NCBI GenBank assembly: GCA_951799425.1
Contig: OX637394.1
Span: 6,583,501-6,647,500 of the forward strand
From: Ilex aquifolium
Taxonomy: Eukaryota; Streptophyta; Magnoliopsida; Aquifoliales; Aquifoliaceae
Direction: 5' to 3'
DNA length: 64,000 nt
Shown in pieces: positions 1 through 62,929 of this stretch. Made by a program: the position numbers and the translations under genes. The notes below the pieces were generated by a model. The model worked only from the letters and a program-made list of their open reading frames with translations, was not told the DNA's origin and searched no databases. Within the stretch, counting starts at the first letter, position 1. Every line of letters starts with the position of its first letter.

Positions 1-504
1 ATCATGAACTCATAAACAATATAGAGTAATATATTCCTTCTTTGGGCTGAAATCTAAAGATGATGCTATCGTTCCAAAGGAATAATCAATATTCATTCAA
101 CCTAATTAGTAATTCTTTTTAAGGAAAGGAAAACAATTAGAGAAATAATTAAATGGGTCAGCCGAGGACAGTGCGACACATTATTTTCATCGATGACACT
201 TGGAAGAAACACATTACTGCTGCTAGTATTGGTGGTACGACCAATAATGAATTTTATTATGTTAGATTTATATTTGTCTTAATGGTGTCGTATTAAAATT
301 TATTCAATTCATACCCGATTCAAATAATTGGAATATCCTCAAGATGAAGATTTGTTCATCTCAATAAATTCAATTCAATTTGAAAATTAGAGATGACTCT
401 AACCCTGTTGTTATTCACAGTCTCAGCTCTTCAAACTAAACCCATGACGTATATTTGGGGGGTGTTGCATGGGCAGTTCAATCTTTATATCATGTACCAT
501 TATT

Positions 505-790
505 AAATCTGATTTTCTAAATCTTTTATGTCTTGGTGGTTTTGTTGACAACGGTGACACCACGTCTTCAATGTCACGTGATGTCACAATTCAATTACAA
601 AATTAAAAATGGGCAAAGTGAGCTCCTCTATATTTATAACTACTCGTAACCACCGCTTTTAATCATCAACACATAAGATTAGTGAGGTTCATTTTATCTA
701 CATGTTATTTTTTAATTAAATAGTGATATCACGTAACATTGATGACGTAATATCACCGTTACATTGAATATTTTCTCGAGTACCAATGAA
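505..790. repeat. MITE-like repeat of the intronic P450 family
   Basis: The segment opens with paired GTGACACCACGT / TCACGTGATGTC words and closes with ATATCACCGTTACATTGAAT followed by ATTTTCTCG. Similar words recur at 12910-13050, 14140-14295 and in the CYP79 introns. In copy 2 the partner (about 17205-17335) lacks roughly 105 internal bases. The ends are not sharply defined. Confidence 0.5.
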
Positions 791-2289
791 AACAAATTTA
801 ACGGTTTGTATTGTATCCAATGCACAACAATCATACCTGTTTTGCAATCTAAGAATAGTAAGTGGCAAGCAACTTTTGTATTGGAAAGACTAATTCCTGA
901 CTCAATCTCGTGAGGTAATATTTTAATGTATAAGCACTTACTAAAGAAGTTCGATCTTACAGAAAAAAAAAATTAAAAAAAAAAAAAAAAACTGTGCTCA
1001 ATGGAGGGGTTCCGCCATAGGAGATTACCAACTTCATTGAAGATATTAGATTCTACGCCAAATTACTAAACCTTTAGTTTTTCCTCAAAAACATAGACCC
1101 TCGAATAGGGCAGCTCATTAGATTGTAGTTACTTCCAATTCTCTTTTCCAAATCGAGTTGGACCTGCTGTCCTCCTACTGCATTACAGGTTAGAAGAATA
1201 TCTGATTGTAATGTTTCTCAAAGTAATTGAATGAAATTTTCATCTAGTGCAGGTGAAAAAAAAAACCTCCCACAGTAATCACATAATAGGTTGAGTGGAT
1301 GGAAGCTGCCTATTAAACAGTAACATTGCAGGCAAGACATTTTTGTATAGATTACCCACGAGTGACCTGTTTGTCTTAATAATATATCATGTTTGTCCAT
1401 CGATTCATCCCACCAAGCAAGACAAATGAATCGACCATAAGACCATAAAAATCATATTTATAATGCTTAGTTAATGATCAGTCCGTCCAGAAACTTGTTT
1501 GTTTATGTAAAAACATATACAACTGTTGAACTAATCGCTTCGATAAGCTTAGCTGGCTAATCCCTGTATACTTGAGTTTTGGGTTTCTCTCTTTCTTAAT
1601 TAAAAATTTAGATTAATGAACCAACATTCCTAACCAGTTCAAAAAAAAAAAACATTCCTAGGGAATCTCATTAGTTTTATGGGATGTCCCCACAAGGGGT
1701 GAGCAACATTTACCCTTAATTGAGATTACAAAAACTTAATGTTCTAATTTAGTTATTTTGATACGTTCTATTTTATTTTTTTCATAACCCGATTGTGTAG
1801 ACAATTATTTTAAATTTTTTTTTTTGACAGATGAAAATTTTCTGCAGGACCAATTTTGTATAAAACATAAAGATCAATTAAGATGCAAAGCTACACAGTC
1901 ATATTTAAGAGCAACTAAAATTAGCTATTATTGCAAAAAATTTTAGAAAATTTTTCATTTTTTCGTAAATATTTCTAAATTTAAACACTATACATTAATT
2001 ATATAAACTGGCTATACATATCTTAAAGGAAAATGTCATATTGACATAATCTGGAGACCTAATTCAATACCCTAAGGTCATGTTTTTTTGAAGGATAATG
2101 GTGGTATAAAGAGATGGATTAGGGAAAATAGTATGTGAGGCCCGTAATATTTTGTTTGTTTACCTTTTTTCGTATGGTAATATTTTTTGGGTTTTGTCCA
2201 CCAATGGTATTAGGGAGATTAATAACTGAATTGCCTTTCGGCCTTTAATGTTAGTATGAGATTTTGGCCACTAATGGTTTTTTGTTTTT

Positions 2290-2520
2290 TAATTTTTTTC
2301 AAAAAAAATCTGATTTTGAATTTTTTACTTGTATTATGTTTAAGTGTACGGTGTCATTGGTTTTTTTTTTTATTAATTTTTTTTAAAAGAATTTCTGATT
2401 TTAAATTTTTTTCTTGTATTATGTTTAAGCGTACTGTGTCACCGGTGTTTTTTTTTTTTTTTAAAAATATTTTGAATTTTTTCCTTATATTATGTTTAAG
2501 CGTACAGTGTCACTAATTTT
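2290..2520. repeat. T-rich tandem repeat, about three units
   Basis: Units of about 80 bp each pair a T-rich run and TCTGATTTTGAATTTTTT-like sequence with TATTATGTTTAAGCGTAC and GTGTCAC. The same array in copy 2 (about 18800-19030) differs in unit content. Reading frames across it are low-complexity and not credible genes. Confidence 0.6.
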
Positions 2521-2913
2521 TTTTTTTTACAATTTTTTTTTGTACATACATCTGGAATGGAATAGAGAAATGGAATGAATGATAAGGGTAAAATTATATA
2601 TTTGTTATACAAGATGTGATAGAATATATAGTTATTTATGGGACCTACAATAATACCTATTGAACTAATAAACATGAGAGGGAATTGAAATACTTTCTAT
2701 TATTGATACTAATTTTCATGAATATTAAAAATATAAGAAATATATTTCTCAATACCTTCTATAACAATTCTCAAAACAAACATCCCCTTATTATAAGAGT
2801 GATGCATCTGATCTGTATAAAAAAAGCAATTTTCCTCTTCGATGGATCGTTGCACAAGCTGAAATTAATATATTTGGTTTCCACTATTCATATGACTTTT
2901 TTTTCTTGTTACA

Positions 2914-5348
2914 GAACCTTGAGGACTAATGGGGGACTTAGCAACATTGGCAAAGGCAAGAAGGGGGCTAGAAGACCTGTATCTAGGAGTCCCAGATGAT
3001 TCGGTGAACCTCACCTTTCAAGACCTTGCTCAAGTGCAGCAACAACAAATCATCTCTTTGGAAAAGAAAAAGTCTGCCAAAATCGAGCTCATTTCTCAGG
3101 TGAACCCAAAGTAATTAAAGTGATTACTGATTTGATTCATTTTATGGTATATAGATGTCAACACAAGTTACTATTATGTAGTTTGTTTACGAAATTATGT
3201 AATATTGAAATCTAATTGTACATGTCAGTTGTTTTTCGAATGAACCCACAGAACGAAAATTCTGGCTTTGACATTGGTTGTTAAGAATCATAAAAGTAAG
3301 GAAGGAAGAGGCATATTGGAGAGATGCTGCGGTTTTGGTTTCATTCTTTTCTTGTTACTTCAATTATTTCATTTTTTCATGTGTTGTTTATCATTTCCGC
3401 TGGTTCTAGTGACATGAAGAATGAACTAGTTCTTACTGATCCTCTTGACTTCCTGTGCTGCACGTTTGAGAAAATTAGGATCACCCACCCTCTCAGTTGA
3501 GTTTCATTATTTCACTTGGAATATGCATTTACTGCAATTATCCAGGGAACAGGAACAATGGGCTCAGTGTGATGATTGCTCGAAATGGCGAAGGTTGCCT
3601 GTTGATGTTCTTCTCCCTCCAAAGTGGACATGTTCTGCTAACAATTGGGACTCAAATAGGTATTTAGCCTTTTATTTACTTACTTTTGGCCGACTTTTGG
3701 GAGATGATAAGATTGTCAATTAATCTCCATTTTCTATATCGATGAGCTGTATAATGTGCCTTAGGTAGGTAGGTTTATGTCCAGATGCTCATGTTCTGCT
3801 CCTGATGAGATAAGTCCAACGGAAGTAGAAAGTTTTTTCAGAGCTGGGAAGGGTATGAAAAATTCTGTTTAAAACATGATTTTGATTTTTGAGGATTAAA
3901 CGGTGGAGACAAGTCCAATGCTGGCGTCTATTAACGGATCTGAAAGCATGCTGGTTGCATTATTGATGCTTAATGCATACCTACAATGTGAAATAGGATC
4001 TAGGACATCAATTTTGTGAATAGGTGTTTAGGTGATAATTTGATGCCAGTTCTACACTACAGGACATCTGGTAAAATAGTTGGATTTGCCCAGTTATTTT
4101 CTTCCATATTTTCAGGGGAAATGAATTCCCTAATTTTATGTTGAAGAAGAATTATTTCCATCTTTGTTACTTGATGTGTTACATAAATGTTCTATCCTAG
4201 GTGTGTCTCACATTTACTATATCCACACCCAATTTACATCCCATGAACATAGCCCATGTGTCGTTTTAAACATATTCTTTGGGCATTTGTTTATACATGT
4301 TCTAGAAAAGTGGTGAGACGAAGTATGAGAATCTAATTAACTAGCTTTTTCATAGATGTATGAGCCAGTTCCAAGACGAGTTCACGTCAAAATCGCCTCA
4401 ATTTTCAAAATGCCATAACTGCGTGTCAGACTAATAGACCAGATATCAAAGTTGTCTCATCATCACAAAAGTTGTTCATCTCTCGATTACACTCACCCAT
4501 CAATTTCTTTGTTCCATGAAGCTTTTCATTTTTTCTTGTCCAACTTTCTACCCCATGAGATTCAAAAAACATGGTGGTAGTTCTCTAACTTCTCTATTTT
4601 TCCCCAGATTCTAAGAAGCGAAGAACCACAGGAAATAAGGTAGCCCAAGAATACGAGCCTTCTGGCTTAGACGCATTGGCCATTGCAGCAGTTCTTGGAG
4701 ACAATGTTGGTGACCCCGGTGAGCATTCAGTTGGAGCCACTACCAAACATCCCCGACATCGTCCTGGCTGCACTTGCATTGTGTGCATTCAGCTCCCAAG
4801 CGGAAAGGGCAGGCACAATCCCACTTGTATATGCAACGTGTGCAAAACTGTGAAGCCGCTTTAAAACCCTCATGCTGCGCAAGAAGAAACGCCAATCGGA
4901 ACGCGAAGCAGAAGTCGCCCAGGGAAAGGACCAGAATCACCCTAAGGACGAGTTAGAAACGGATGTTGCATCTGGACTTGCATTACTGCATATGAATCAT
5001 TCCGAAAATGAAAGAAGCCCGAGTGGAGTCCAAATGGAGGTTGTTGAAACCAGCAAGGGACAATTAGACTTGAATTCCCATCCCAACCGAGACAAAGACA
5101 TGTTTACAGAACCAACTGGACTTAGCATGACAAGCCTTGCTCATTCCCCGAGCCATCAGTTGGAGATGTATTTGCAGCGGAATGGGCTTGGAAATTTCAT
5201 CTCCCGTTTAGTCTCAACAGCTGGTGGTGAGAGTGAAGGCCGCCCACCTGATGATGGCCGGCGAGCAGCTGTTGCCAACGAGCAGCAAGACAAAGGTGAT
5301 CATATGAGACCAACTAAACTGTACGAGTTTTGTCTTTTCTTCGTTTGA
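2914..5348 (+). pseudogene. VAL/HSI2-type B3-CW transcription repressor, 3' part, copy 1 (broken)
   Basis: VAL proteins bind RY DNA elements through a B3 domain, read histones through a CW zinc finger and repress seed genes in the nucleus. Only the C-terminal half is here. A CW exon lies at 3546-3659 ([16 protein letters not shown], then [12 protein letters not shown]), flanked by a CAG acceptor and a GT donor. An exon at 3785-3852 encodes CSCSAPDEISP. A long last exon from 4608 encodes SGLDALAIAAVLGD, the Cys/His-rich KHPRHRPGCTCIVC and PTCICNVC motifs, LMLRKKKRQSEREAE and an EAR-type LDLN motif. An upstream exon-like stretch (2914-3099, GLEDLYLGVPDDSVNLTFQD) is of uncertain family. Near 4855 a 2-base loss turns the expected VKRRFKTL into VKPL-stop, so the last exon is frameshifted. 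No B3 or PHD-like exons are visible. The family call is firm; loss of function is inferred. Confidence 0.85.
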
Positions 5349-5384
5349 TTACATGTGTATTCTTATTTTTTTGATGTGAGCATA

Positions 5385-5516
5385 TCTATAATATAAAACA
5401 GAGCAGAATTTAATAAATATATCTGACGGTCTTAAATAGACTCATCTAATTGCCATCAACATCTTTCTCAAAATAATTCACATTGTATTGTGCCTTCAGA
5501 CACGGATTACCCCTAG
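5385..5516 (+). mobile_element. Mini-Helitron, 132 bp
   Basis: It starts with TC (TCTATAATATAAAACA) and ends in CTAG. A short hairpin (GTGCCTTCAGACAC) lies just inside the 3' end. It sits between A (5384) and T (5517) without target duplication, as Helitrons do. A second member with the same ends lies at 53218-53392. It is too short to code and must have been moved by an autonomous relative. The matching host region is lost from copy 2, so its age relative to the duplication is unknown. Confidence 0.82.
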
Positions 5517-5519
5517 TCT

Positions 5520-6130
5520 ATATATAAACATACCACATGGTTGATGATTTACATCCTCACAGTTAGGGAGTGCACTCAGTTTCTGTCTGTAAAAATTTCA
5601 GCCACTATCCCTACTAGATTTCCATAACTTCGGGTACACCATATACATTTTCCGAAATTTCTTCGACACTCTCGATTAGTGTTTTTCTCTTTACTCACGT
5701 GGTAACAGAAATGATTGTTTTATATATTTGACCAAGCAATGTTTATATGTTTACATTATATTGGTTTTTTATATGGTTGCATTATATACATGATGCACAC
5801 ACATGCCAACTAGTAAGAAAGAGTGGGGGAGAGAGAAAAAGAAAGGATCTTATTATTACTGAACAAGGCCCTATGTAATCTTTTAGTCTTGCCGGTTATA
5901 TTTGATGGGCATAAGGTAGAGTAGAGAGGTTTCTTCTTGAGAATTGTCAAAAGCTAGATTTCATCCACCTTTGGACATCATCCAATGAGAGGTTTTATAC
6001 CAAATTTGGTGCCCCATTCAATGGGGATGTTGGATTGGGTGAACTAGTACGACCCTAGCCTACCTAATTCAACATCCAGCATTTTTCGTTTAGAACGACG
6101 GTTAAAAAACACCAGACTCGTTAAAAAACC
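5520..6130. other. Intergenic DNA unique to copy 1
   Basis: This lies between the mini-Helitron and the MULE. No gene or clear element is seen. Part of a host stretch (4790-6130) that has no counterpart in copy 2, where the Ty3/gypsy element occupies this place. Confidence 0.6.
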
Positions 6131-6359
6131 CACCGCATCATAAATAATTGAGTAAATTACACTAACATTCTCTGACATTTAGTTTTTTTACATGAACACC
6201 CCCTCACATTTCAAAAATTACACTGAAACCCCAGTAATTAGACGTAGTTAACGGTTTTGATAAAAAGACTATTTTTACCTTTTCTTTAACACAAATTCAA
6301 ATCCAAACCCCAAATCTTATCCCTAACCCTAATCTTCGTTGTCGTCTTTGCCCCCAATG

Positions 6360-6360
<1 letters not shown>

Positions 6361-6452
<92 letters not shown>
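6361..6452. repeat. TC/TA compound microsatellite
   Basis: An uninterrupted CT/TC run is followed by TA repeats, inside the MULE. The partner in copy 2 (43328-43506) is about twice as long, with a greatly expanded TA part. Confidence 0.95.
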
Positions 6453-6455
<3 letters not shown>

Positions 6456-6456
6456 T

Positions 6457-6678
6457 ATGCCCAAAACGAAGAATCAATCTGAAATAGCCAAGGAATCGAT
6501 GAAAATTGATGAGGTTTCAATGGAAGTTAAAGACAAGATGAACATTGAAGAGGGTATGGAGAAAAATGTCGTGGTGATGCCGTTTATAGAGCAAGATGTG
6601 GAGACAAAAACAAAGGTGGAGAATAGTTTATCCTTCATGTCTGTGAAGATGGTGACGGATGGGGTTTGTGCACAGTAG
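6457..6678 (+). CDS. Unrecognised short reading frame inside the MULE
   Basis: The frame of 73 codons has a charged, Glu/Lys/Met-rich product (for example MKIDEVSMEVKDKMNIEEGM). The frame is partly kept in copy 2 (about 43507-43635), with most changes conservative, but the copy 2 start is replaced by the microsatellite and it ends early. I do not recognise the family. It lies between the TIRs, so it may be a host gene fragment picked up by the MULE or a chance frame. No promoter or splice evidence supports expression. Confidence 0.3.
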   Translation: MPKTKNQSEIAKESMKIDEVSMEVKDKMNIEEGMEKNVVVMPFIEQDVETKTKVENSLSFMSVKMVTDGVCAQ

Positions 6679-6930
6679 TGTCAGTGCAGTGGTGGTGGCG
6701 TGCGTTACGGTGGATGGCGGAGGCTTGCGTTTCAATGGGTTCATTGTAGTGGTGGCGTGCGGTGTAGTGGTGGTGTTTTGCAGTGCAGTGATAGTGGTGG
6801 CAATGTTATAGAAGGGGAATAGATAGCCGAAGGAAGGGGATTTTGACCAATTTTAAATGGTGGAACCGCTGGTGAAGGCCAACGGGAGGATGATGGCTAG
6901 TGGTGAAAATTAAATTATTAATTTGATATA

Positions 6931-7290
6931 GGTTTTGGGGTGTTTGACTAATTCTGACTATTTTTTTTTTTTTTTTGTAAATTCATTAGTAATTACTTGA
7001 AATTGAATAAGTAGTTGATTAAGTAATTAATGACTTGAGTGGATAATTTTTTTTTTTTGGCCCACTTAAGTGGATAATGACATTGATAAATTGTAGATGA
7101 AGTATTCCAGAAAAAAGGGGTTTGGTGGTGTATGACTAATTTTAACCATTTTTTTTTTTGTAAATCTATTGAAATTGAATAATTAGTTGATAAATAATTA
7201 ATGACTTGAGTGATTAATGACATTGGTAATCTATACATTACTTGGAATTAAATAATAATTAAATTTTAATTAGTAACTTATTGAATTTGG
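6931..7290. repeat. Tandem duplication inside the MULE
   Basis: Two units of about 180 bases share TTTGACTAATT or TATGACTAATT, a poly-T run, GTAAAT, TTGAAATTGAATAA, AGTTGAT and AATGACTTGAGTG in the same order. Copy 2 has the same arrangement (about 45680-45970), so it predates the segmental duplication. Confidence 0.75.
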
Positions 7291-8119
7291 TGATTTGTAG
7301 ATTATTAGAAATCAAATAATAAAATTTTAAGAATTTCAAAATCATAATTCGTATAATTCTAGCTAATTATTTAAATATCGTAAGGTGAGAAGATATTCTT
7401 GCCCTTTCACCTTTAGTTAGTGGATTAATATAGTCTTCCACTTGGGAGAAGTGTATGTTGGGTATTTTTTAAAATTTGTTGATGATGCGATCTTTTTTTT
7501 GTACTTGTTTTGACGTCTATTATGTGGAAGAGGTGTGGCTGTCACACGCGTTTAAATGTCGAGGGTCTCAATATAATTTTTAAAACGTGATGGGATGTTC
7601 GTGTAATAAAATTAAATGTAAGAAAATGTGATTGTAATTTATCCTAAATAATTTTGAGCTGCAGTTGGACTATGGGGCAGGTGTTTTACCTGTACGTGGC
7701 CAGGCAGTTTTATAGTGCAAACTTGGGCCAGGCAGTTTCATATATATATATATATGAAATTTCAAAATTCAAATGATACACAAATATTAAAAGGAATCTT
7801 AAAAATCTTACATTCTAATATTTAAATATTAGAAATATAAAAGTTGTCAATTAGATATACACTATTTATGGTAGGGGTAATTATGGAATACATTTTAGAA
7901 AGAATTTGAAAATGATTTAAAATGTGTACTTATTGACAACTATTTAATGAAAAAAATGACTTAAATAAGGATAAGTTTATAGGTGATACTTTAAGCCAAA
8001 TAAATTTTGAAAAATATCCTCATATCCCATTATCTATAAATAGAGATAACTTAACACGAGCACGACCTTTATATGTTGTTTGGTGAGATGATGGATACAT
8101 GTTGTTGGCTCCTTGGCTA

Positions 8120-8262
8120 AGCCTAGCATGACATAAATGCAGTCTTGATAATCGAGGTTAACGATCGGCCTAATATTCACCGTCTAATTGTTGAATTTGA
8201 AAATCGTAGCTTTGAATTTCATCGTCCTCCTCTCTATAATAATGTCTAACAAAAAAAAAAGT
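8120..8262 (+). mobile_element. SINE-like relic with A tail
   Basis: The segment ends in TAATGTCTAACA followed by ten A residues, preceded by a degenerate Pol III B-box-like GCTTTGAATTTC. Related copies are at about 46570-46710 (segmental duplicate) and 53545-53648 (independent, with a better box). Exact 5' ends are not resolved. Confidence 0.4.
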
Positions 8263-8384
8263 CTGGATGATTGATGTTGGCTTAGCTGGATCTTGGCTTA
8301 GTTGGATCAAGATGTTCATCAAGTAGTTGGGTTGCTGTGAATGAAGTATTTAGAGGGTCTCCAACAGTGCTATCTTTTTAATCT

Positions 8385-8640
8385 TCATGGGTGGTCCAGT
8401 AGTTGGGTTTGTCTTTTGGTAGCCCAAATGTCTCATGTTCAATCTCTTTTCACACATCATAAGGGCTGGCCACCCCTTACCCCTTTGGAGATATGTTTTA
8501 GACCAACTCAAGCTACGGTGGTCAGCGCTGAGGTCGAGAGAGTAGTCGGCGCAAATCTGGACAACCTGTAGCAGACCATCCAAGTCAAGACTATAATATT
8601 TATGAGGACGTCTCAATTTACAGCTCGTCTGTATTATCAC
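8385..8640 (+). mobile_element. SINE-like repeat, second family
   Basis: It begins GGTCCAGTAGTTGGGTTTG and contains a B-box-like ATGTTCAATCTC. It then runs through GACCAACTCAAGCTACGGTGG and on toward GGACGTCTCAATTTACAGC. A diverged independent copy lies at about 15005-15190 and the duplication partner at about 51345-51545. The internal promoter boxes are weak, so the SINE label is tentative; the repeat itself is clear. Confidence 0.45.
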
Positions 8641-9082
8641 TTGAGCTACTCTTGAAATTGTAATATTAATATTTTATAAATGAAATATGTAAATAAAATT
8701 AAAAAGAGATTTAAGTGTAGTAACTTAAAAAGAGATAAAAGGTATTATAGACATTTTTAAAGTGGACTCCAAACGCCTTGTTTCTCTTTGATTATCATTA
8801 GTTGCATGCATTGGCAAAATGAGCAAACCATTCTTCTTCTTACATTCTGACGTGTTACTGCATCTCTCTATATCTCACTAACTACCTAACTACCTATATA
8901 TTTATAAGAAAATCTTATTTATACCTAATTTAATAATTTTATTTAGTAACACAATAAATCATAGTCATTGAATTGATAGTGAATTTTAACTAATAATTTT
9001 ATTTAGTACCACGATGAATCATAGTCATTGAATTGATAGTCAATCTAATAATAGAGAACGATAAGATCACCAAATAATATAA

Positions 9083-11415
9083 CTAAAAAAGCTTATATTT
9101 ATAATATGCATAGATCAAACTAACGAGTACAAATACATGGGACTGAAAGTTACAACTACAAATCAGATTCGGTATGGTACTGAAATAGTTTTTAGTGCAT
9201 ACCATAGCCTTATTCATTTGAGTAATGCTACATGTACTTAAAAAATAGACTTGATAATCACAACTACTGATTAAATAGTAGGTCTGTGCTACAGCTAGCA
9301 GTGGGTGAGCTAGAGAGAGATCAGTCTGTGCCTCTCTGAGGTCAATACTAGACACAGAGGGTGGCAACTTCCAAGTGAACCCTTGAAGAAGCCTAGCCAA
9401 AAGCATGGCAGTCAGGGTAGAACCCAATGTCACCCCTGCACACCCACGCCTTCCTGTGCTAAACGAAAACATCTTCAGCTCTGGGTCAGAAAGCCCCACC
9501 TCCGAGCCACCGTCCTTCAGGTGGCGCTCCGGCTTGAACTTGAGTGGCTCCTCCCAAACTCTCGGGTTGCGGCCGAGTCCCGGCCGGCTCAGCAGCACGT
9601 GACTACCCTTAGGGATGAAGTAACCGGCGACTGTGGTGTCTGCGACGGACACGTGTGGAACATTGAAGGGTGCAAAGGGGTGAAGCCGAAAGGCTTCTCT
9701 GGCGCATGCTTTCACGTAATTGAGGTGTGGCAAATCGGACTCTTGGACTAGTCTCTCTTTTCCAACCACTCTGTCTAGTTCTTCTATGGCTTTTTCAATG
9801 GTCTGGGGCTGATTTATCATCTCTGCAAGTACCCATTCGACGGCATTTGATGGATTGTCCACTGTTGCTATCATTAGTTCCTGTGAAGTACACCAACTAA
9901 TTAACGCTATTTTGTGAAACCATTATTCTTTAAAGATATTGCACCAATGCAAAAGCAGCACAACAATACTCTTTATTTTTTTTTTGACCATGAAGTATGG
10001 GATCAATGATAAATATTGGGTGTAATCGACACCACGTCAGTAGTGTCACGTGGTGTAATTGTCCACTAATGACGGTCACATGGTGTAATCGTCCACCAAT
10101 AAGTAAGCAAGTCAGTAAACGAGCTCCACAAACATTCATAACAACTTGTAATGCATAACTACATCCATGATAGAAAATGAGTTTTAATTTATCCATTTTT
10201 GTAGTGTTTTTATTAGATTGTTACACCACATTAATATTGTTGAGATAGTGTAACCGTTACACCTAATATTTACTTAAAAAGAATATACAATATTAAGTGC
10301 TCATAGTTAATTTCCAATGCCATGTTTAACATTACTACTCTCATGTGAGAGGGTGTGTGTTTGTATGAGAGAGAGAGACTTACAACAATCTGGCCTTTGA
10401 TCTCTTCAGCTGACAACACTGGTCTACCATCTATATCCTTGAGAGTAATCAGAACATCAAGCAAGTCTTCTTTTTCCTTCTTACTACCTTCCATCCATTG
10501 CCCAATCCTTTGGTCAATTTCAGGATCATGATATTTTCTTACAGTCCCAAGAGCTTTCTTCATAATCTTCTCATGCCCATCTATGTCAAACCCTCTTAAA
10601 CATGGTAAATAATCAGAGATACAAAATGCATAAAGGTACGCAAGAATGGTGAAAAGCCCGGCGACATGCTCTTCCTCTTCAACCCCTGGTCCTCCATCTT
10701 CCATTCCTTTTCCGAAAAACCTCTTTCCAAATATCATTTTCCTTATCACATTACCACAGTAATGCTGAGTGGCAATTCTCAAGTTCACTACTCCGCCTTC
10801 CATGGTGGTTTTGCACTGGTTATACACGTAACGAACAAGGTGATCGGCTTCTTCGTCTCTTTTGCCGTGAAGCCACCGGTGTTTCGCCGGAGAAAGCACC
10901 TCTGAAGCGAGGATTCTCCTCATTTTTTTCCATTGTTCGCCGAAAGGAACAAGAATTGCTGCCAAGTAACCGTTGCTAGCAAGTTCAGCAGCCATGCAAA
11001 TGGGTCTAGATGAGAAAATGGCATCTTGATTCTGCAGGAACTCTCGTCCCAATTCAGGACTAGTAACTGTGATAACATGAACGTTTCCTAGACGAATACA
11101 AGCTATTTCAGTGTTCATTTCATCCATAAGGTTGTGTATCCATTGGGATATGGGTTTGTTTGTGAGCATTTCGGGGAGATTTCCAACTATCGGCCATGGT
11201 TTTGGGCCAGGAGGAAGTGGTAATTTGTTCTTGTTACCAATGTGTTTGGATTTGTTCTTGACAAAAAGAAAGAACAACAAAGCCATGAGAAGAACAGTAG
11301 AGAAGGAAAAGCTTAAAAGAATTAATGGTGATTCAATTGAGACCATGTCTTGAGAACCCTGAAATAGGGTTGAGGAGTAGAAGGAAGTGACTAAGGTGTT
11401 ATTGTTGATCTTCAT
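9083..11415 (-). CDS. CYP79-type cytochrome P450, copy 1, altered C-terminus
   Basis: CYP79 enzymes are ER-anchored P450s that N-hydroxylate an amino acid twice to give the aldoxime. Exon 1 is 11415-10384 (344 codons, donor GTAAGT) and exon 2 is 9880-9083 (acceptor CACAG). Residues 30-52 form a membrane anchor, followed by a [16 protein letters not shown] hinge. Exon 2 carries the CYP79-specific DNPSNAVEW, the EAFR of helix K, FKPERHL and the heme loop [11 protein letters not shown] (Cys491). After AVAQ (residue 543) the frame leaves the family: about 170 bases present in copy 2, including the final [10 protein letters not shown] codons and stop, are missing near 9283. The frame then runs on for 66 unrelated residues to 609. 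The core fold is complete, so activity is possible but doubtful. A TATA box lies about 95 bp upstream. Intron 1 carries a MITE. Substrate unknown. Confidence 0.88.
10009..10274. mobile_element. MITE in the CYP79 intron, copy 1
   Basis: The terminal inverted repeats read TAAATATTGGGTGTAA on the left and, inverted, GTAAATATTAGGTGTAACG on the right. The interior repeats CACGTGGTGTAAT and CACATGGTGTAATCGTCCAC. It sits between exon 2 and exon 1 on the minus strand and is also in the copy 2 intron (56840-57074), so it predates the duplication. Confidence 0.78.
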
Positions 11416-11508
11416 GATCTTTTGTGCTTTGTGTGATTGCCTGCTGGCTCAGAGAGGGGTGTTGTAATGGTGCTTGTGTGCTTGCTGGTTCGTAGTATTG
11501 GCTATAGC

Positions 11509-11518
11509 CTTTTTATAC
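11509..11518 (-). promoter_or_regulatory. TATA box of CYP79 copy 1
   Basis: On the minus strand TATAAAAAGG lies about 95 bases upstream of the ATG at 11415. The same motif at the same distance is kept upstream of copy 2 (58309-58318). Confidence 0.6.
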
Positions 11519-11519
11519 T

Positions 11520-13070: not shown

Positions 13071-13149
13071 CATATTTAATCGGGTCTAATTACGATACTG
13101 AAATAATGATATTTTTCAGTACCGTATTTCAAGACCCAATATGATTTGT

Positions 13150-13556
13150 GGCTTAAAAGAAAACTAAAAAGAGGCTTTTATTTTTAATATTGATATTTTT
13201 TATTTAAGATTTATTCTTCTTCTTATTTTCATTTTAAATTGATAGTATCGTTAATTCATTTTATATTTTTTGTGATAGTTGATCTTAACTAAGATTTTAT
13301 TAATTTTAATATTAAAATACTTTTTCTTGGCAGAAGCAATTGTTGGAGGAGTTGTCAATAATTTTGAAAGCGATGCATATCTGAAAATGAAATCTAGCCT
13401 TTTATATCAATTGAATTGTTTTCTTCTGTTTGTAAAATTTTCTTTAAAAAGTTATAATTTTAAAAATAAATCTAAATTAATCACTATAAAAAAACTGTCA
13501 CATTTTACAAAACATTCAAGAATAAGATAAACAGAAACCAGAAAAGGAAGGATTTG

Positions 13557-50319: not shown

Positions 50320-50690
50320 ACATCTCATTGTGTGTGTGGGAGCCGGGAGGGCTCGGGTTGTGTTATATGATTGAGTCTCATCTCACTCATGGCATGTTAT
50401 ACACATTGACATTACATTGTGTTGTCGAGCCGGGAAGGGCTCGGGGTGAGTGCATAAATGAGTCACATCTCATTTCATGATACATCAAACACGTTGGCAT
50501 TAGCATTGTGTTGAGGAGCCAGGGAGGGCTCGGGTTGAGTACATGAGTCCCATCTCATTTCATGGGGCTTAGGTAGCCCGGTTTAACATACATGGCATTG
50601 ACATGTAAAGGGAGTCAGAGTGGACTCGGGTTGAGTGCACATGGGTGGGTCTCACCTCATTCATGGCATGACATTATAGCATTACATCAT
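50320..50690. repeat. Tandem repeats of about 100 bp within the solo LTR
   Basis: Four diverged units each carry GAGCCGGGAGGGCTCGGGTT-like sequence, a TGAGTCTCATCTCA-like stretch and CATTGACATTACATTGTGTTG. Confidence 0.8.
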
Positions 50691-53217: not shown

Positions 53218-53392
53218 TCTATAATACAAAACATGACAGACTTTAATAGACTCATCCGACAGACTTTAATAGACTCATCCAATGGTTATCAACATCCCTC
53301 TCAAAACCATTCACATTGAATTTCTCTTTCCCTCCAAATTCATCACTTCTCATTTATGTTGCACCGTGTCTTCAGGCACGGATTACCCCTAG
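53218..53392 (+). mobile_element. Mini-Helitron, 175 bp, nested
   Basis: Starts TCTATAATACAAAACA and ends GGATTACCCCTAG with hairpin GTGTCTTCAGGCAC, between A and T. Same family as 5385-5516. It contains a short internal duplication, GACAGACTTTAATAGACTCA, that the other copy lacks. Confidence 0.82.
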
Positions 53393-53544
53393 TTTGTCTA
53401 TACATATAGACACAAAAATACATACATATGTATGCATATATGTATATCTAATCTCTCATTGAAATCTACGCTTTCTAGAACTAAAGTCCAAATCATTTTG
53501 AGCATATACAGAGATTAAAGGCGGCAATAATTATGGGTATGGTC

Positions 53545-53648
53545 CCCAACAACCACATAAAACAACTAGCAAGTTGTTAATCTTTAATGTCGTGGATTCG
53601 AACTTTGTCACATTCTCTCCGTAATAGTTTTTGATTAAAAAAAAATAG
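53545..53648 (+). mobile_element. SINE relic with Pol III boxes and A tail
   Basis: It has TAGCAAGTTGT (A-box-like), GTGGATTCGAAC (B box) and a tail of A residues after TTTTTGATT. Related to the relics near 8120 and 46570. Confidence 0.5.
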
Positions 53649-54030
53649 AAAATATGGTAGGTGGCTTAGGGTAATGCAATAAAAAATTCAATTCATTTCA
53701 AGGGACTCAATGATCCAAGACAATATTAATTATGGATTAGGTCACCAAAAAATAATATAATGGATAAAGAATTCATTTGCACATGTAAGGCATAAAAAAT
53801 TCTTAATAAGTCTGTATGTTTACCAACAAATAAAAAAGACTTGGAAAGAAACAAATTATAAAAAAAGACTTGGTGAGGATGTTCATTTCTTGATCTAATC
53901 CTTTGATATTAAATTATCCAAGTCAAATTTGGATTTTTTTATGGTTGTTAGAACAACCGGATTTATTTTTTTTAATCCCAAAAAAAAGTAAATTTTTTCA
54001 TTTTTCGTGGGTACCATTCATATTTTTTTA

Positions 54031-54128
54031 GGAGGGGGAAGCGGGGGAGAGGGAGGTGATGAGGTTTGAACCTGTAATCACTTGGGGGCGAGAGTAAACT
54101 CTTTTCACTGAGCCACTCCCCCACCTCC
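54031..54128 (-). mobile_element. SINE head with tRNA-like promoter
   Basis: On the minus strand it has AGTGGCTCAGTG (A box) and, 34 bases on, CAGGTTCAAACCTC (B box), the spacing of a Pol III promoter. Purine and pyrimidine runs flank it. It does not fold as a tRNA. The 3' end is unclear. Confidence 0.55.
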
Positions 54129-54336
54129 CATAAATACTCTTGAATTCGTATACGACACGATTAATAAATTTGTCGAATTAGTGTCAAGACATTTGTCACG
54201 TTTAATAAAATAGATTAAGTTAGTATTAATAAATATATTTTTTCACTTAAAATAGCATGACATGAATATGATACTATGTAGTCTAGATGCTAGTCAAACA
54301 CTATGTAGTCTAGCTGCTAGTATATATATATATATA

Positions 54337-54590
54337 TAACAACCATACTTGCATTAACAGGGATGCACCAGGATATACCCAAAAAATTTATTGGTAAGTG
54401 TGGACTCACACATACACACATATATATTCTATTACCAGAAGTCCACACTTACCAATAAATTTTTTGGGTATATCCTGGTGCATCCCTGTTAATGCAAGTA
54501 TGGTTGTTACAAGGATGCACCAGGATATACCCAAAAAATTTATTGGTAAGTGTGGACTTCTGGTAATAGAATATATATGTGTGTATATGA
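54337..54590. repeat. Three-armed perfect palindrome (plus, minus, plus)
   Basis: Arm 1 (54337-54406) is repeated exactly, inverted, at 54440-54509 over 70 bases. The middle arm, extended leftward to about 54413, is again exactly inverted at about 54513-54584, with continuation GGACTTCTGGTAATAGAATA. The middle arm can therefore pair with either neighbour but not both. It lies inside the Helitron. Confidence 0.92.
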
Positions 54591-56078
54591 GTGTGTGTGT
54601 GTGTGTGTAAAGTTACAAGGATTTGAAATATAGTACCAATCCTACCTTGTGATGAGTATGCAAATTGGGAGGTAAGAGCACCCAGAAAACTCTCCGTCTT
54701 TGTCTTTCTTTCATTTCAGTTTGTCAATCTATCATTCTTTATCACATACTGGTAACGTTCAGAGTTTATAGTGATCCAATGTCTTCCTTCCCCATATATT
54801 AGGGACATGAGTGATAAAGTTGATGTGACGAAGTTAAAGCAGAAGATTGGAAAAATAAGGAATCAGTTTTTAAACTATATGCAAAGTTACTGAATTTGGG
54901 AAAAGAATCTAAAGAGTTGAAATTACTAACATTAACTAAAGAGATGAAGAGTTGTAACAGCCAAAATAACAATTATTTACGTAAAATCAAAAGACATTTT
55001 CCTTAATGAAGGAACTCGGGTAGGTTATCTGCCACTCAAATATAATCTCAAATTGTATGATGCCAGCAAAAATATTAACTAAAATAATCATCAACTAATA
55101 GATATGCCGTATTAGATTGCATATATTGCATCTGTTGAGTTTAATACATAATTGTGTTATTATGTCTAATCACCCCCACATTTCTACTATCAATGGAGTA
55201 CAAATGTCATAATTCCTAATATTAATAGAATTGTTAATTGGTGTTTTGAAGGATAGTGCTGTGTTTATATAATTTTTTAAGGGTATAATAGTCATTTAAA
55301 AGTAATATAGATTAGTGTGTGTATTTTTAGTATATTAGTTTTTATGTTTTGGTGTATTAGTGTGTGTGTTTGTATTGTCTATTAAGAATTTTAATTATTT
55401 TATGGGTTAATGGATTTAACCCAACCCGTTATAAACTCAACACATTATAACCCATTTAATATGTGAGTGATAAATAGATTGGATTTATTTTAATCCAAAC
55501 TAATTTAACCCAACCCAACCCACCCATTTGCCACCTCTACTAACTATATATTTATAAGAAAATGTTATTTATACATAATTTAATAATTTTATTTAGTGAC
55601 ACAAAGGATTATAGTCATTGAATTGATAGTGGGTTCTAACTAATAGTAGGGTCTATTATCAATCTAATAATAGAAAAATGATAAGGTCACCAAATAATAT
55701 CACTAAATAAGCTCATATTTATAACATGCATAAATCAAACTATCGTACTAAAAATTAATTTTACTTAATTATTTTTATAACCAAGGAGTACAAATACATC
55801 GGACTGAAAGTTACAACTACAAATCTGATTCGATATGGTACTGAAATAATTTTTAGTGCATACATAGTCTTATTCATTTGAGTAATAATACATGTACTTA
55901 AAAAGTAGACTTGATAATTACAACTATTGATTAAGTAGTAGATCTCAATAAATATTGGGACCCACAGTAAAATCAATATTTGTAATTATCAAGTCTATTT
56001 TTTAAGTCTAGTTTTTACATATATATATTTATATATAACTCTACGTATTATTACATACTTATTTGTATATAAGAAGAT

Positions 56079-58216
56079 TCAAGCTGCAACATACAAATTT
56101 CCAGCCAAGCGTGGCTGTGCTAGAGCTAGCAGTGGGTGAGCTAGAAAGAGATCAGGCTGTGCCTCTCTGAGGTCAATACTAGACACAGAGGGTGGCAACT
56201 TCCAAGTGAACCCTTGAAGAAGCCTAGCCAAAAGCATGGAAGTCATGGTAGAACCCAATTTCACCCCCGCACACCCACGCCTTCCTGTGCTAAACGAAAA
56301 CATCTTCAGCTCCGGGTCAGAAAGCCCCACCTCCGAGCCACCGTCCTTCAGGTGGCGCTCCGGCTTGAACTTGAGTGGCTCCTCCCAAACTCTCGGGTTG
56401 CGGCCGAGTCCCGGCCGGCTCAGCAGCACGTGACTACCCTTAGGGATGAAGTAACCGGCGACGGTGGTGTCTGCGACGGACACGTGTGGAACATTGAAGG
56501 GTGCTAAGGGGTGAAGCCGAAAGGCTTCTCTGGCGCATGCTTTCACGTAATTGAGGTGTGGCAAATCGGACTCTTGGACTAGTCTCTCTTTTCCAACAAC
56601 TCTGTCTAGTTCTTCTATGGCCTTTTCAATGGTCTCGGGCTGATTTATCATCTCTGCAAGTGCCCATTCGACGGCATTTGATGGATTGTCCACTGTTGCT
56701 AGCATTAGTTCCTGTGAAGTACACCAACTAATTAACGCTATTTTGTGAAACCATTATTCTTTAACGATATTGCACCAATGCAAAAGCAGCACAACAATAC
56801 TCTTTTTTTTTTTTTCGACCATAAAGTATGAGATCAATGATAAATATTGGGTGGTGTAATTGTCCACTAGCAACTGTCACATGATATAATCGTCTACCAA
56901 TAAGTAAACAAGCCAGCAAGTCAACTACACAAAAATTCGTAACAACTTGTCATGCATAACTACATCAATGATAGAAAATGAATTTTATTTTATCCATTTT
57001 TGTAGTTTTTTTATTGGATTGTTACACCACATTAACATTGTTGATATAGTGTAACCATTACATCTAATATTTACTTAAAAAGAATATGGAATATTAAGTG
57101 CTCATAGTCAATTTCCAATGGCATGTTTTACATTACTACTCTCATGTGAGAGTGTGTGTGTTTGTATGAGAAAGAGAGACTTACAACAATCTGGCCTTTG
57201 ATCTCTTCAGCTGACAACACTGGTCTACCATCTATATCCTTGATAGTAATCAGAACATCAAGCAAGTCTTCTTTTTCCTTCTTACTACTTTCCATCCATT
57301 GCCCAATTCTTTGGTCAATTTCAGGATCATGATATTTTCTTACAGTCCCAAGAGCTTTCTTCATAATCTTCTCATGCCCATCTATGTCAAACCCTCTTAA
57401 ACATGGTAAATAATCAGAGATACAAAAAGAAAAAAGGTACCCAAGAATGGTGAAAAGCCCGGCGACATGCTCTTCCTCTTCAACCCCTGGTCCTCCATCT
57501 TCCATTCCTTTTCCGAAAAACCTCTTTCCAAATATCATTTTCCTTATCACATTACCACAATAATGCTGAGTAGCAATTCTCACATTCACTACTCCGCCTT
57601 CCATGGGGGTTTTGCACTGGTTATACACGTAACGAACAAGGTGATCAGCTTCTTCGTCTCTTTTGCCGTGAAGCCACCGGTGTTTCGCCGGAGAAAGCAC
57701 CTCAGAAGCGAGGATTCTCCTCATTTTTTTCCATTGTTCGCCGGAGGGGACTAGAGCTGCCGATAAGTATCCGTTACTAGCAAGATCAGCAGCCATGCAA
57801 ATAGGTCTAGATGAGAAAATAGCATCTTGTTTCTTCAAGAACTCTCGTCCCAATTCAGGACTAGTAACTGTAATAACATGAACGTTTCCTAGACGAATAC
57901 AAGCTATTTCAGTGCTCATTTCATCCATAAGGTTGTGTATCCATTGGGATATGGGTTTGTTTGTGAGCATTTCGGGGAGATTTCCAACTATCGGCCATGG
58001 TTTTGGGCCAGGAGGAAGTGGTGATTTGTTCTTATTCCCAATGGAATTGTATTTGTACTTGACAAAAAGAAAGAACAACATTGCCATGAGAAGAAGAATA
58101 GAGAAGGAAAAGCTCAAAAGAATTAGTGGTGATTCAATTGAGGCCATATTTTGAGAGCCATGAAATAGGGTTGAGGAGTAGAAGGAAGTGACTAAGGTGT
58201 TATTGTTGATCTTCAT
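56079..58216 (-). CDS. CYP79-type cytochrome P450, copy 2, intact
   Basis: Amino acid N-monooxygenase family, ER membrane, needing NADPH-P450 reductase. The reaction is amino acid to aldoxime. Exon 1 is 58216-57185 (344 codons, phase 0, donor GTAAGT) and exon 2 is 56711-56079 (acceptor CACAG, 210 codons), giving 554 residues, normal for CYP79. Landmarks: membrane anchor about 30-52, hinge [16 protein letters not shown] 68-83, DNPSNAVEW about 352-360 (the CYP79 change in helix I), ExxR at 406-409, FKPERHL 459-465, heme loop [11 protein letters not shown] with Cys491, C-terminus [11 protein letters not shown] second Met at residue 24 is a possible start. The usual VPFGEQW is VPSGEQW (Ser158), unlike copy 1. 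The pair differs at about 30 residues in all. Substrate (aromatic or branched-chain amino acid) cannot be told. Confidence 0.93.
56840..57074. mobile_element. MITE in the CYP79 intron, copy 2
   Basis: Partner of 10009-10274, with the same TAAATATTGGGTG and inverted ends. It lacks about 30 bases of the internal CACCACGTCAGTAGTGTCAC region found in copy 1. Confidence 0.75.
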
Positions 58217-58587: not shown

Positions 58588-59690
58588 TAGTTCTAGGGTG
58601 ATGCATCAACTGTGTTGTTGTGCAGGATGCCAATTCTCTCTCTGGCAACTTATTTGTTAATCTTACATACTTCTTGATGATTAGGTCACGTTGAATTTGG
58701 AACATATTTATCTATTGTCTTTTTGTTTCTTCAGTTCTGGATGGCTTGTTTTATTTTAATGTGTTGTTGCTTGTTCTTTCTCTTTGCTTCTGTTTGGTGT
58801 GACAGACTGACAGCATACTCGTGGCTGCAGCTTAGATTATGAGGTTTTAAGTTTTTCCCATGTCTTTTTTTTACTTCTATTTTTAGCCAACTGTTGATTT
58901 TTTATGCTATTGTTGCTGATGCTTTTTTTATGGATTGGAGGATGTTGTTGAAGCTTGTTTTTGGAGGATGCTACTGAAGCTTATTTTTTGACCCTACCGA
59001 GCAGGTAGTTCAAGGTTGGATTCAAGTAATTGCTGTCTTGTTCTTTGAAATTTTTGATTGGCTACATACATTTATGATTTGGAGTTCAATTTGTCAGGTA
59101 TTGTGTTTAATAAGAGATGATGCAGAGCTTGCCAACAGGAAAGAGATATTGGGAATCTCATGTATAGCTCAAATTTGAGTTTTGATTTTCTGTTTTGCCT
59201 TGTTGGAATTTTGCTATGCTGTAGCAGTCACTGCTTTGCTGCTAGGCCTGTACTGTTGTGCAGGAGTTAGGCTGCTGCTGTTGTGGTGCCTCTGATCAGC
59301 TGGGAGTATTGTGCAATTTTGGAGGAGTAATGTGGAAGATTGGAGATGATTTTGAAGGATTAAAGCCGTTATTCATTGTAACAGATTTTCTATAACTCTT
59401 GCGAACTGAAAATCTGTTTTTTGGTAACAGAATTTTTGTTGGCTTGTAACAGTTTTCTGTTTTGAGTTTAAACAGTTTTTTCTGTTTTGTTAAAAAAAAA
59501 TGTTAATGGCATAATTTTATATACCGTTAAAATTTTCTAGCTTTGATTTTAATGGCATAGTGTTGACTTTGCTGAGAGTAGGGGTGATGATGGGTGAAAC
59601 AATGATTTTAAACAGCAAAATTTTCTGTTTTGATTTTATAATTTTATTCATTTTATAATTTTCTGTTTTGATTTTAAACAGCAGGCGTGT
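58588..59690. mobile_element. Unidentified insertion
   Basis: Not present in copy 1. It is TG/T-rich, with repeated CTGTTTTGATTTTAAACAG and GTAACAG words towards its right side (59380-59680). No coding domain, clear ends or target duplication was found. About 45 host bases at the left junction are also different. Confidence 0.45.
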
Positions 59691-59691
59691 A

Positions 59692-60024
59692 TGATGCAAA
59701 AAAAAAAAAAAAAAACCATTACCGGCGTTTATTTAAACGTCGGAAATAATTTGCAGAGAAGTAATAATTACCGGCGTTTATTTAAACGCCGTAAAATAGC
59801 TCCGGTCACCGAAATTTTAAAACGAAGTCGTCGATTAAATAAACGTCACTTAAATGTTTTGTAAACGTCACTTTAATTTTGTGGCGTTTAATTATACGCC
59901 GGTAATTTTTCCGACGGAGGTTTCGGCGTCGTTAATAACAAACGTCAATAATAATATTTTGTGGCGTTTATTTACAATTACCGGCGTTTATTAAACGCCG
60001 GTAAATGTCTTTTTTCTTGCAGTG
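59692..60024. mobile_element. CACTA-like MITE with subterminal palindromes
   Basis: The right end, inverted, reads CACTGCAAGAAAAAAGACAT, a CACTA-type terminus. The left end (TGATGCAAAAAA, then ACCATTACCGGCG) is a degenerate version. Inside, units built on CCGGCGTTTATTTAAACG are repeated at least five times in both orientations, typical of CACTA subterminal transposase sites. Copy 1 sequence resumes directly after 60024. No matching 3-bp target duplication was seen. Confidence 0.65.
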
Positions 60025-60928
60025 TACCGTGCCTTCAAAACACAATAAAAGACCAAAAAATAATAGTAAAGTCAAAATAAGTCAGACTCGAAATTCAGCA
60101 ATACCAATGGTGTTTGATCCAAATCGAGCCAACGATCAGGACTCATTATTTTGCCATGAACTCCTTTAACTTTGGGCTGAATTCCGTCATTTAAGCTCTC
60201 AAAACTTAATTTTTGTCGTTTTAATAAAGATTTCGTAAATTAATAATAAATTATAGGAGATTCTGAATTCTGCGCCATTAGTTTTGTTAGACTCCAGACG
60301 ACACATGTTTTTATGTTAATTCGGAAAATCACATATTTCTATTTTTGATAATTTTCATAATGTTAGAGATTTTGCTTTAGTTATGAGAACTATTATGGTT
60401 TCGACCATTCCTATTTATACTACTCATTTGTACTACAGATTATTCATTAAATAAAAATCATATTTTAGAGTTTTATCTATTATATATGTGGATTCATAGT
60501 TTTCCTTTTGACTCAATACATAAAGATTTGTAATATTCATTGTGCTCCCTATTCCCTTGCGTTAGTTATTGTAGTTATAATTATCGGCGTTGTTGATTCT
60601 AAGTGTATTACTTGACACGTTACTAGATTAGATATTAAATCCAAAAAATAATATTCTTAAAAGAAAAATATTAAATAGAATTAAAAATCTTACCAAAAAT
60701 ACTAATTTAATGATGATATGCTAGTTGATATGATTCATTTGTAAAATGACAATAATATTATTTAGATCTATTTTGCTGAATAATTTTGTTGACCTAATTC
60801 AATACAATTATTTCTATTTGGATTTACTATCAATTTAATATGTGATTGATTAAGTCAATAAATTAAATTAATAAATTAAATTTAAGTAACATTATATTTT
60901 TTTTTTTTGGGTAAAAATAATAACATTA

Positions 60929-62732
60929 TCTATATACTACTAATAAAAGTACCTTAGATGAAAAACTTTTGAATTCCTCTTCTACCCTTAAACAAAATTA
61001 TAAGGACAACTATACCTCACACTAATAATTTCATTTAAAACTTTTGAGTTTCTATTTTGTCCTTAAATAAATATATGAACACTTATGGCTTAAATCATAA
61101 AAAATTGACATTGTGTGTACCCTTAAAGAAACCTACAAATTCAATTATTACCAATATATAATTCATAAAAGTCACTAATAAAAAAAAATTATTTTCTAAT
61201 TTTATCCTAACAAAATTTAATAAAGTCCATATTATAATTCTATAACTATGATTTAACAATAATATAAAATCAATATTATCCTTAATCCAAATATTACTCT
61301 AATTGGTTTCTCTTTTTTTTTTTTTTTTTTTATGAATTCATAATATAAAACTAAATTTTTTCATTGGTCTAATATGTGTTGTAACTTATCTAAATTGTAG
61401 ATCTTACATATTCAAAAAATAGTGTAAACAAGTCCTAAGAGTTCTTGAGAGTAAATATCAAGTTATAACAATGACTTATGAAATTTATACGGAGTCAAGC
61501 CCTTTAAAAAATAGACTTTTGAACTTTCCTTCAGTTACTAATATCTTATATATTTAGATAAATCTAACAATGAATTTAGAATTAAATTTCTTTAACTATA
61601 GATAAGTTAGTTCTAGGGAATTCCCAAAATTCTAATCCCTTAAGATAAATGTTGCAGAAGAAACAAGTCTTTGTAGTTAAAACATGTACATCTTCTATCT
61701 ATTAGTTTGTATGAAACTTAAAGCTGCAGCTCGCTCTTGATCTATATTTGAAGGCGCGTTATGACGATTTACTTGATTATTCTGTTATCTTGTGTTCTAT
61801 TATAAAATTATAATATCTTTTATGGTGATTTTATCAAATTTTTCTCTCGCAAAATTTGTATCACCATGATTCATGCAGCCAATGATTATGAACTCTTAAC
61901 AAGTATAGTAGATTTATCACACACAAAATGTATAGTCTCAACCAGCCTTCCAATATTCGTGGGGTGATCAATCAATCTTGAAGTAATCAATTTAGCATGT
62001 AGTCTAGCTTTTTAGATGATTATTGTGGTTGGAACACGTAGTAACATATAATATATCTAGACAACAAGTATCAAATGGCATATACTTTGATTCGTAAGTG
62101 AATATTTAATTATTTCAACATAATGATAAGAAATAACATCACCACCATAAATTAACCTTGTCCACGTGTAACGCACATATGTACCAATGTGTCAAGTGAT
62201 ATCTTCACATTAAAAAATATTGTTGATAAATAAAATGGAGTATTCGTTTAATAGGAATATGTATTGATAAATCAATGTTATAGGTTTAGCACAATGCATC
62301 TATATAAAAGAACAAGGAATTTACAGAGAGTTAAAGAAAAATTCGAAAGATGACATAATAGAATCTTAAAAAAGTGCGACATAAAAAAAAAAGTATTACA
62401 TTTGGGAAGAACTGCCTGCTTGACATCTTAGCTGATTTAGTTTTAAGAGATCGAAGGGTTGTCAATTAAACTATACCAAATTGGTTTGATCATTAATTAT
62501 TTTTAAACTTTGAAAGAGGATATTATTATGATAGGTATGTGGCCAATATGTTTTACCATATTTACAATTAAACTATAAAATAAGACTCATAAATTACAAA
62601 AATCACATTTTGAGGCAATTTTTGATAATATTATTATTTTAAATAAATTAACCTATATACCGATATGATAAATATAAAATCAAAACTATTGTTAAAAATA
62701 ATTTACGTGCAACGCACGTGTGCAATAACTAG
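60929..62732 (+). mobile_element. Helitron, 1.8 kb, non-autonomous
   Basis: Starts TCTATATACTACTAATAAAA and ends GTGCAATAACTAG with hairpin ACGTGC-AA-CGCACGT just inside. It is inserted between A (60928) and T (62733). Copy 1 at 12635/12636 reads AACATTA-TATTATTG without interruption, an exact empty site. No Rep/helicase reading frame was found. Copy 2 also lacks about 50 host bases shortly right of the insertion. Confidence 0.93.
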
Positions 62733-62929
62733 TATTATTGATAAGGGAGTTGACACCATTCAGTAGCATTATTCTACTTGCAATTATTAGCATTCTTTAT
62801 AGAGATTATATCACTCGACATATCATTATGTTAATTAATTATATTAAAATTTTAATTATATAAAAGTATTATTTATAATTATAATTATTAAATTTTTTTA
62901 AGAGAATTATATCACTTGACCAGTGTTTT

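Follow-up and report, generated by a model that had tools for sequence, protein, structure and literature searches.

The stretch of DNA analysed here, hereafter the window, comprises 64,000 nucleotides of holly (Ilex aquifolium) at positions 6,583,501-6,647,500 of contig C4 (OX637394.1), very likely chromosome 4, and holds two copies of a segment that combines part of a VAL transcription-repressor gene with a CYP79-type cytochrome P450 gene. The initial annotation of the window described these as the products of one tandem duplication, equally exposed, of which one had absorbed nearly all later transposons. We find instead that the two copies are members of an array of eight units and that they are the lowest and the highest of a graded range of insertion loads. 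The reading that we favor, with a probability of about 0.7, is birth-and-death evolution of the eight-unit array, in which a unit's load rises with its isolation from exchange; much of the difference between the two copies is then attributable to chance. The apparent anomaly thereby becomes an ordinary array, and a comparison of two copies inside a window can mislead.

We read 250 kb around the window and identified eight head-to-tail units, A to H, all in the same orientation, at 6,532,458-6,755,261, of which A and H are partial; at least three head-to-tail copies are thus present at one locus. The amplified unit consists of VAL 3' exons, a CYP79 gene on the opposite strand, and a spacer. A search of the genome (103 contigs, 800,232,872 bp) with the CYP79 query returned matches at further loci on both sides of the window and at one locus 10 Mb off. 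The published assembly is reported to comprise 800.0 Mb in 104 scaffolds and 20 chromosomes, with chromosome 4 measuring 53.23 Mb (PMC11109700). Self-BLAST of the window bears out the two collinear copies described initially, with starts 16.66 kb apart, and they correspond to units C and D:

1 to 12876, forward strand: copy 1, unit C (contig C4 6,583,501-6,596,376), its left spacer lying outside the window.
16662 to 62920, forward strand: copy 2, unit D, collinear with 1-12876 and with seven insertion sites of at least 500 bp.
12877 to 16661, no strand: the C-D spacer, homologous to the B-C, D-E, E-F, F-G and, in part, G-H spacers.

The units are joined by one common junction, which is found in C, D, E, F and G and is 98-100% alike over 122 bp. 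In copy 1 it is made up of the following features:

2923 to 3111, forward strand: first-exon fragment of the right-hand flanking gene, ending at the founding junction.
3112 to 3115, forward strand: founding tandem junction, where the first-exon fragment is joined, with about 2 bp of filler, to VAL upstream of the CW exon.
3430 to 3720, forward strand: VAL CW zinc-finger exon frame (Pfam zf-CW, 1.7e-09).

The breakpoint lies at reference 3113/3114, and its VAL side reads as intron. Unit A starts and unit H ends at the identical reference position, 3114. Unit H runs on into the right-hand gene, whose exon continues in open frame to the right of H, and to the left of A there are further VAL exons, including a B3 exon. 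Units A and H are the array ends, and unit B gave no match at the junction site. Comparison of copy 1 with the 12.5 kb left of A likewise gave no match except a 106-bp repeat. The presence of one junction of two flanking genes in C, D, E, F and G indicates that one duplication founded the array.

In order to compare loads, we counted insertions of at least 500 bp over reference 1-12876 (unit C), with each unaligned gap taken as one insertion even if composite, and with units A and H counted only over their covered part. The count does not extend to stretches below 500 bp (in units E, F and H, for example, 417, 418 and 379 bp), to the spacers (reference below 1), to unit B left of reference 3835, a region with an unreliable chain, or to the distant copy at 16.377 Mb. 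Between the two copies in the window, the initial claim of a gain of about 35 kb in copy 2 and almost none in copy 1 is correct: copy 2 has 34,706 bp of extra sequence at seven sites (6326, 15153, 1704, 4507, 3775, 1435 and 1806 bp), and copy 1 has no insertion of at least 500 bp relative to the other units. Across the array, large insertions number two in A, three in B, none in C, seven in D, one in E, two in F, three in G and two in H, and 13 of these 20, found over 86.3 kb of covered reference, lie outside copy 2, so that the claim that one copy took nearly all transposons is wrong for the array. A binomial test on the two copies (7:0, P = 0.016) was rejected as a frame because they are two of eight units. 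The inserted sequence exceeds 20 kb in both B and G (21.7 kb in G) and amounts to 14.1 kb in F. No large insertion was found in more than one unit at the same site, and a 417/418-bp stretch common to E and F is below the threshold. Pairs of long terminal repeats (LTRs) differ by Kimura two-parameter (K2P) distances of 0.047 in D, 0.044 in B, 0.007 in G and 0.0065 in F, a spread of ages which shows that insertion continued over time in several units. The value for D is well below the C-D divergence in blocks X2, X3 and Q (12.0, 11.3 and 8.6%) and close to that in V1 and V4 (4.2 and 4.4%; the block next to the insertion); the element is found in D alone and therefore arrived after D had separated at the insertion site.

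The first alternative is that chance alone accounts for these counts, with random insertions falling on equally exposed units and the window having caught the lowest and the highest as neighbors. Under random placement, the spread across the eight units has a probability of 0.075 (0.13 at a 1-kb threshold), a full-length unit with at least seven insertions is expected with P = 0.11, and one with none with P = 0.19. The load imbalance is at the border of chance, and a two-copy argument from equal exposure does not hold for eight units with graded load of which C and D are the extreme pair. Against chance, both extremes occur together with P = 0.035; D alone, with seven of 20, has P = 0.021 uncorrected and 0.17 corrected, and C alone, with none of 20, has P = 0.039 uncorrected. 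Additionally, load follows isolation from exchange, as set out below. Chance alone therefore deserves serious consideration as the whole explanation, though we lean against it.

Relationships among the units change from block to block, as expected from exchange. The nearest relative of C is F in the spacer and in V0, V1, V3, V5, X1, X2 and X3, G in V4, E in V6, P2 and Q, and B in P1. In block P1, C differs from B at 4 of 574 positions and from E at 13 of 591, and in the next block, P2, the corresponding counts are 107 of 1277 and 4 of 1301 (P = 2e-11); E and F diverge by 0.1% in P2. Non-coding divergence between C and D ranges from 1.7% in the spacer (9/537) to 12.0% in X2 (38/317; Fisher P = 5e-10). 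These per-block substitution counts, which differ about sevenfold, do not fit a single duplication with one divergence level, and the initial annotation had itself regarded such unequal block divergences as incompatible with one duplication. C and D are not sister copies, and C is a mosaic.

As a measure of isolation we averaged, over the five blocks present in all seven units A-G, how far each unit diverges from its nearest relative. The average is 5.5% in B, 5.5% in D, 4.4% in A, 2.6% in G, 1.6% in C, 1.2% in F and 0.8% in E, and the density of insertions rises with it (Spearman coefficient of 0.82; P = 0.017 by exact permutation; n = 7). The coefficient stays at 0.79-0.93 when any one block is left out. 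Units B and D together carry 10 insertions in 21.9 kb, against six in 51.5 kb in C, E, F and G (P = 0.010, for groups defined after the fact). Several points weigh against this association. The seven units are not independent, and both the grouping of B with D and the 500-bp threshold were set after the data had been seen. Single-block correlations range from 0.47 to 0.88, with two of five having P > 0.1; dropping unit D brings the P value of the correlation to 0.051, and divergence against inserted kilobases gives a rho of 0.71 (P = 0.07). Unit G exchanges sequence yet holds its 21.7 kb, as F holds 14.1 kb, and unit C is without large insertions even in X3, where its nearest relative is 4.8% away. 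Causation may also be reversed, with insertions blocking exchange.

Birth-and-death evolution of the array would have proceeded as follows. The founding duplication joined the exon-1 fragment of the right-hand gene to VAL just upstream of the CW exon, and unequal crossing-over would then have multiplied the unit. Further crossing-over or gene conversion, to which the mosaic similarity points, would have reshuffled the units. Transposons landed in seven of the eight over a long time. Among the units that still exchange sequence, most (C, E and F) have few large insertions, probably because segments free of insertions replace or outlast the rest; B and D, the most isolated units, lie outside the exchange pool and would keep their insertions and drift, a cause suggested by the correlation. 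A more demanding version, in which loss of exchange and transposon load are coupled unit by unit, possibly along with relaxed protein constraint, and in which conversion or crossing-over acts as a transposon-clearing force, so that the array would amount to a natural experiment on a small scale, we put forward only tentatively.

The initial annotation had named relaxed constraint, a chromatin difference and a haplotype or assembly effect as possible causes of the uneven load. Under the first of these, constraint would have been relaxed on copy 2 alone, so that its genes were dispensable and insertions in them tolerated. The relevant coding regions in the window are as follows:

9086 to 11346, reverse strand: copy 1 gene for a CYP79-type P450, with exon 1 at 10384-11346 and exon 2 at 9086-9880.
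56079 to 58147, reverse strand: copy 2 gene for a CYP79-type P450, with exon 1 at 57185-58147, exon 2 at 56079-56711, an open frame and a normal end.
4589 to 5345, forward strand: VAL 3' coding frames of copy 1 (4589-4861 and 4854-5345).

Both genes belong to the P450 family (Pfam p450: 5.5e-24 for the exon-1 frame of copy 1 and 3.4e-53 for the exon-2 frame of copy 2), and the best matches in the Protein Data Bank are other P450s. Motifs regarded as CYP79 hallmarks (23 residues) are present in the translations, and both genes may be oxime-forming members of that family. The CYP79 family usually starts cyanogenic-glucoside and other nitrile pathways, and the array provides holly with more than one CYP79-type gene that has an open frame: only unit B has a stop in these exons, a single one, and those of A, C, D, E, F and G are free of stops.

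Changes private to CYP79-D comprise 16 non-synonymous and five synonymous substitutions (ratio about 0.9), against 18 and 21 on the other branches pooled without B (P = 0.03). Exon 1 of unit A, which this comparison includes, ends in a slightly different motif. The VAL fragment of copy 2 is also broken, its first 3' frame being split by an insertion of a long interspersed nuclear element (LINE) and its second missing, and unit B, with the CYP79 stop, is loaded as well. However, the excess in CYP79-D has P = 0.065 when B is pooled in, and eight of the 16 non-synonymous changes fall in the first 42 residues, without which there is no excess (P = 0.52). CYP79-D is open with a normal end, and it is the unloaded copy 1 that lost that end, its last 11 codons having been removed by a unit-private deletion and replaced by a new tail. 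In all junction-bearing units, copy 1 included, VAL has been severed from its B3 exons, and VAL fragments carry stops in B, F and the lightly loaded E too; with the junction in both copies and stops in E, constraint on VAL fails to distinguish one unit from another. For the D protein there is no more than a hint of relaxed constraint, and as the explanation of the load of copy 2 we regard it as unlikely.

A chromatin difference that made copy 2 a preferred landing site is more doubtful still. It would agree with elements of several types sharing copy 2, but B and G also hold more than 20 kb of inserted sequence each, so there is no single preferred unit. A haplotype or assembly effect, with allelic copies or wrongly joined contigs set one after the other, might be suggested by close blocks (C-D spacer 1.7%, E-F P2 0.1%) and by the seven haplotypic duplications that curators are reported to have taken out of the assembly. 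It is very unlikely given eight units with one common junction and different flanking genes at the two ends, a C-D divergence of 11-12% in X2/X3, no N within the 250 kb, and an assembly described as having 36-fold HiFi coverage and a contig N50 of 15.2 Mb (PMC11109700).

Searches for papers on the Ilex genome, Ilex CYP79, menisdaurin in Ilex, tandem arrays, and CYP79 with gene conversion and transposable elements gave no earlier description of this array among the papers listed. Tandem P450 clusters, including those of CYP79, undergo birth-and-death evolution. Like them, the holly array repeats a P450 of specialised metabolism in tandem, and one of the copies contains a stop codon; unlike them, it has amplified part of an unrelated gene, for a transcription repressor, along with the P450. 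A close parallel is maize P1-wr, where 12-kb gene units lie head to tail; Goettel and Messing (2009, PMC2686159) explain them by unequal crossing-over together with gene conversion. Hybrid genes are reported to stand at both edges, one of them end-joined with filler DNA, and nine LTR retrotransposons in one edge member account for a 68-kb expansion which, in the authors' view, may suppress recombination nearby (PMC2686159). Holly shares the head-to-tail units, a junction with filler and an insertion-loaded member, and probably the unequal exchange or conversion. It differs in that P1-wr comprises eleven nearly perfect repeats, with the retroelements described lying in one edge hybrid gene, whereas the holly units are more diverged, large insertions occur in seven of eight, and the unit with the heaviest load lies inside the array. 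As maize P1-wr has much the same set of features, the holly array is ordinary in kind. Fungal mating-type chromosomes, for which transposon build-up is reported where recombination stops (PMC10502011), are similar in having more transposons where exchange has ceased, but the holly case concerns an array member of about 16 kb rather than a chromosome region, with n = 7. If the pattern of isolation and load holds in other individuals, such arrays could be used to measure whether recombination between copies clears transposons.

The insertions in copy 2 are the following:

21459 to 27784, forward strand: 6,326-bp LINE-type retroelement in a VAL exon, with DUF4283 and RVT_1 frames and an A-rich 3' end.
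27940 to 43092, forward strand: 15,153-bp LTR retroelement with terminal repeats of 221-223 bp (K2P 0.047).
43792 to 45495, no strand: 1,704-bp insertion, a high-copy interspersed repeat.
46820 to 51326, no strand: 4,507-bp insertion, including an 864-bp palindromic stretch.
51764 to 55538, no strand: 3,775-bp insertion with short terminal inverted repeats AGAGGTGRCAA.
58593 to 60027, no strand: 1,435-bp insertion with a CACTA-like right end.
60930 to 62735, forward strand: 1,806-bp insertion with Helitron-like ends TC...CTAG, between A and T.

None of the seven was found at the matching site in the units covering it. Unit B has a 6.75-kb insertion 10-20 bp from the 4507-bp site, and across the 1806-bp site 272 bp of unit G do not align; neither sequence is like that in copy 2. 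The 15,153-bp element carries RNase H-type and integrase-zinc domains, and no target duplication was seen around it. At its site 1,329 bp of host DNA are gone, including a VAL coding frame, and this DNA is kept wholly or partly in A, B, E, F and G. Its LTR as a query gave 40 genome matches including its own two (the best 40 of 129 candidates). Inside the element, a 39-bp tandem repeat runs for 26 copies at 33865-34895; one of the opposite-strand open frames that follow it was searched and had no Pfam match.

The 1,704-bp repeat had 1,513 candidates in a first look at the genome, and most of the best 40 match only its first 540 bp; it may be hAT-like. The class names CACTA for the 1,435-bp insertion and Helitron for the 1,806-bp one are likewise putative. 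The 4,507-bp insertion is probably composite: about 1.45 kb of it match (88%) an insertion at a different site in unit A, as 338 bp of the 1,435-bp insertion match (88%) part of an insertion in unit B. Of ten insertion frames searched against Pfam, six had no family match, and the frame in the 1,704-bp insertion was one of these. The initial count of at least eight insertions of six classes is thus plausible, with the 4507-bp site looking composite, but it is only partly substantiated, two retroelements being identified by domains.

Copy 1, in turn, is compact partly by deletion, as small segments missing from it are present in most of the units that cover them. A 74-bp segment at 3777 is present in A, D, E, F and G and not in C; about 64 bp at 3858 occur in A, D, E and F, with B unclear, and units A, B, D, E and F share 86 bp at 4117; C and G have neither. 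At 9284, 128-206 bp in D-G are missing from C, as are about 110 bp at 11581, where D-G have 109-114 bp, A has 74 bp and B has at least the right part. The final 11 codons of CYP79, lost in C, are encoded in A, B and D-G, and the spacer left of C is without about 2.5 kb found in E, F and H (2.0 kb in G and 1.4 kb in D). It is therefore more likely that several differences of 64-170 bp are losses in copy 1 than that they are gains in copy 2. A 303-bp segment at 7734 is present in C and F and not in A, B, D, E or G.

The label "VAL-CYP79 segment" used initially holds for a CYP79-type P450, and for VAL it holds only for the 3' exons. The B3 exon left of unit A matches VAL1 in the Protein Data Bank (6fas, 5.7e-33), and on its own it scores 27.4 bits for Pfam B3, below the curated cut-off of 30.1. 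B3 and CW do not occur together in one gene in the window units, where CW and the 3' exons follow the junction. At 2923-3720, and at the same place in E, F and G, the first 61 codons of the right-hand gene stand upstream of VAL 3' exons; in copy 1 a stop directly follows these codons, and a spliced chimeric transcript across the junction is conceivable. The block at 2920-3780, with the junction and the CW exon, diverges by only 0.5-1.4% among C, E, F and G, and the adjoining blocks reach 5.8% (V1) and 3.8% (V4).

Outside the array, a further copy of CYP79 plus spacer lies on the same contig about 10 Mb away (C4:16375931-16384432), and a reversed CYP79 fragment, 84% identical, lies to the right of the array at C4:6791657-6792018. 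Two more distant CYP79-like genes (70-73% identity) are found about 41 kb apart and in opposite orientation at C3:56819143-56863599. Within the window, copy 2 contains a perfect (TA)61 microsatellite at 43384-43506, the counterpart of which in copy 1 has about 24 units (6405-6453).

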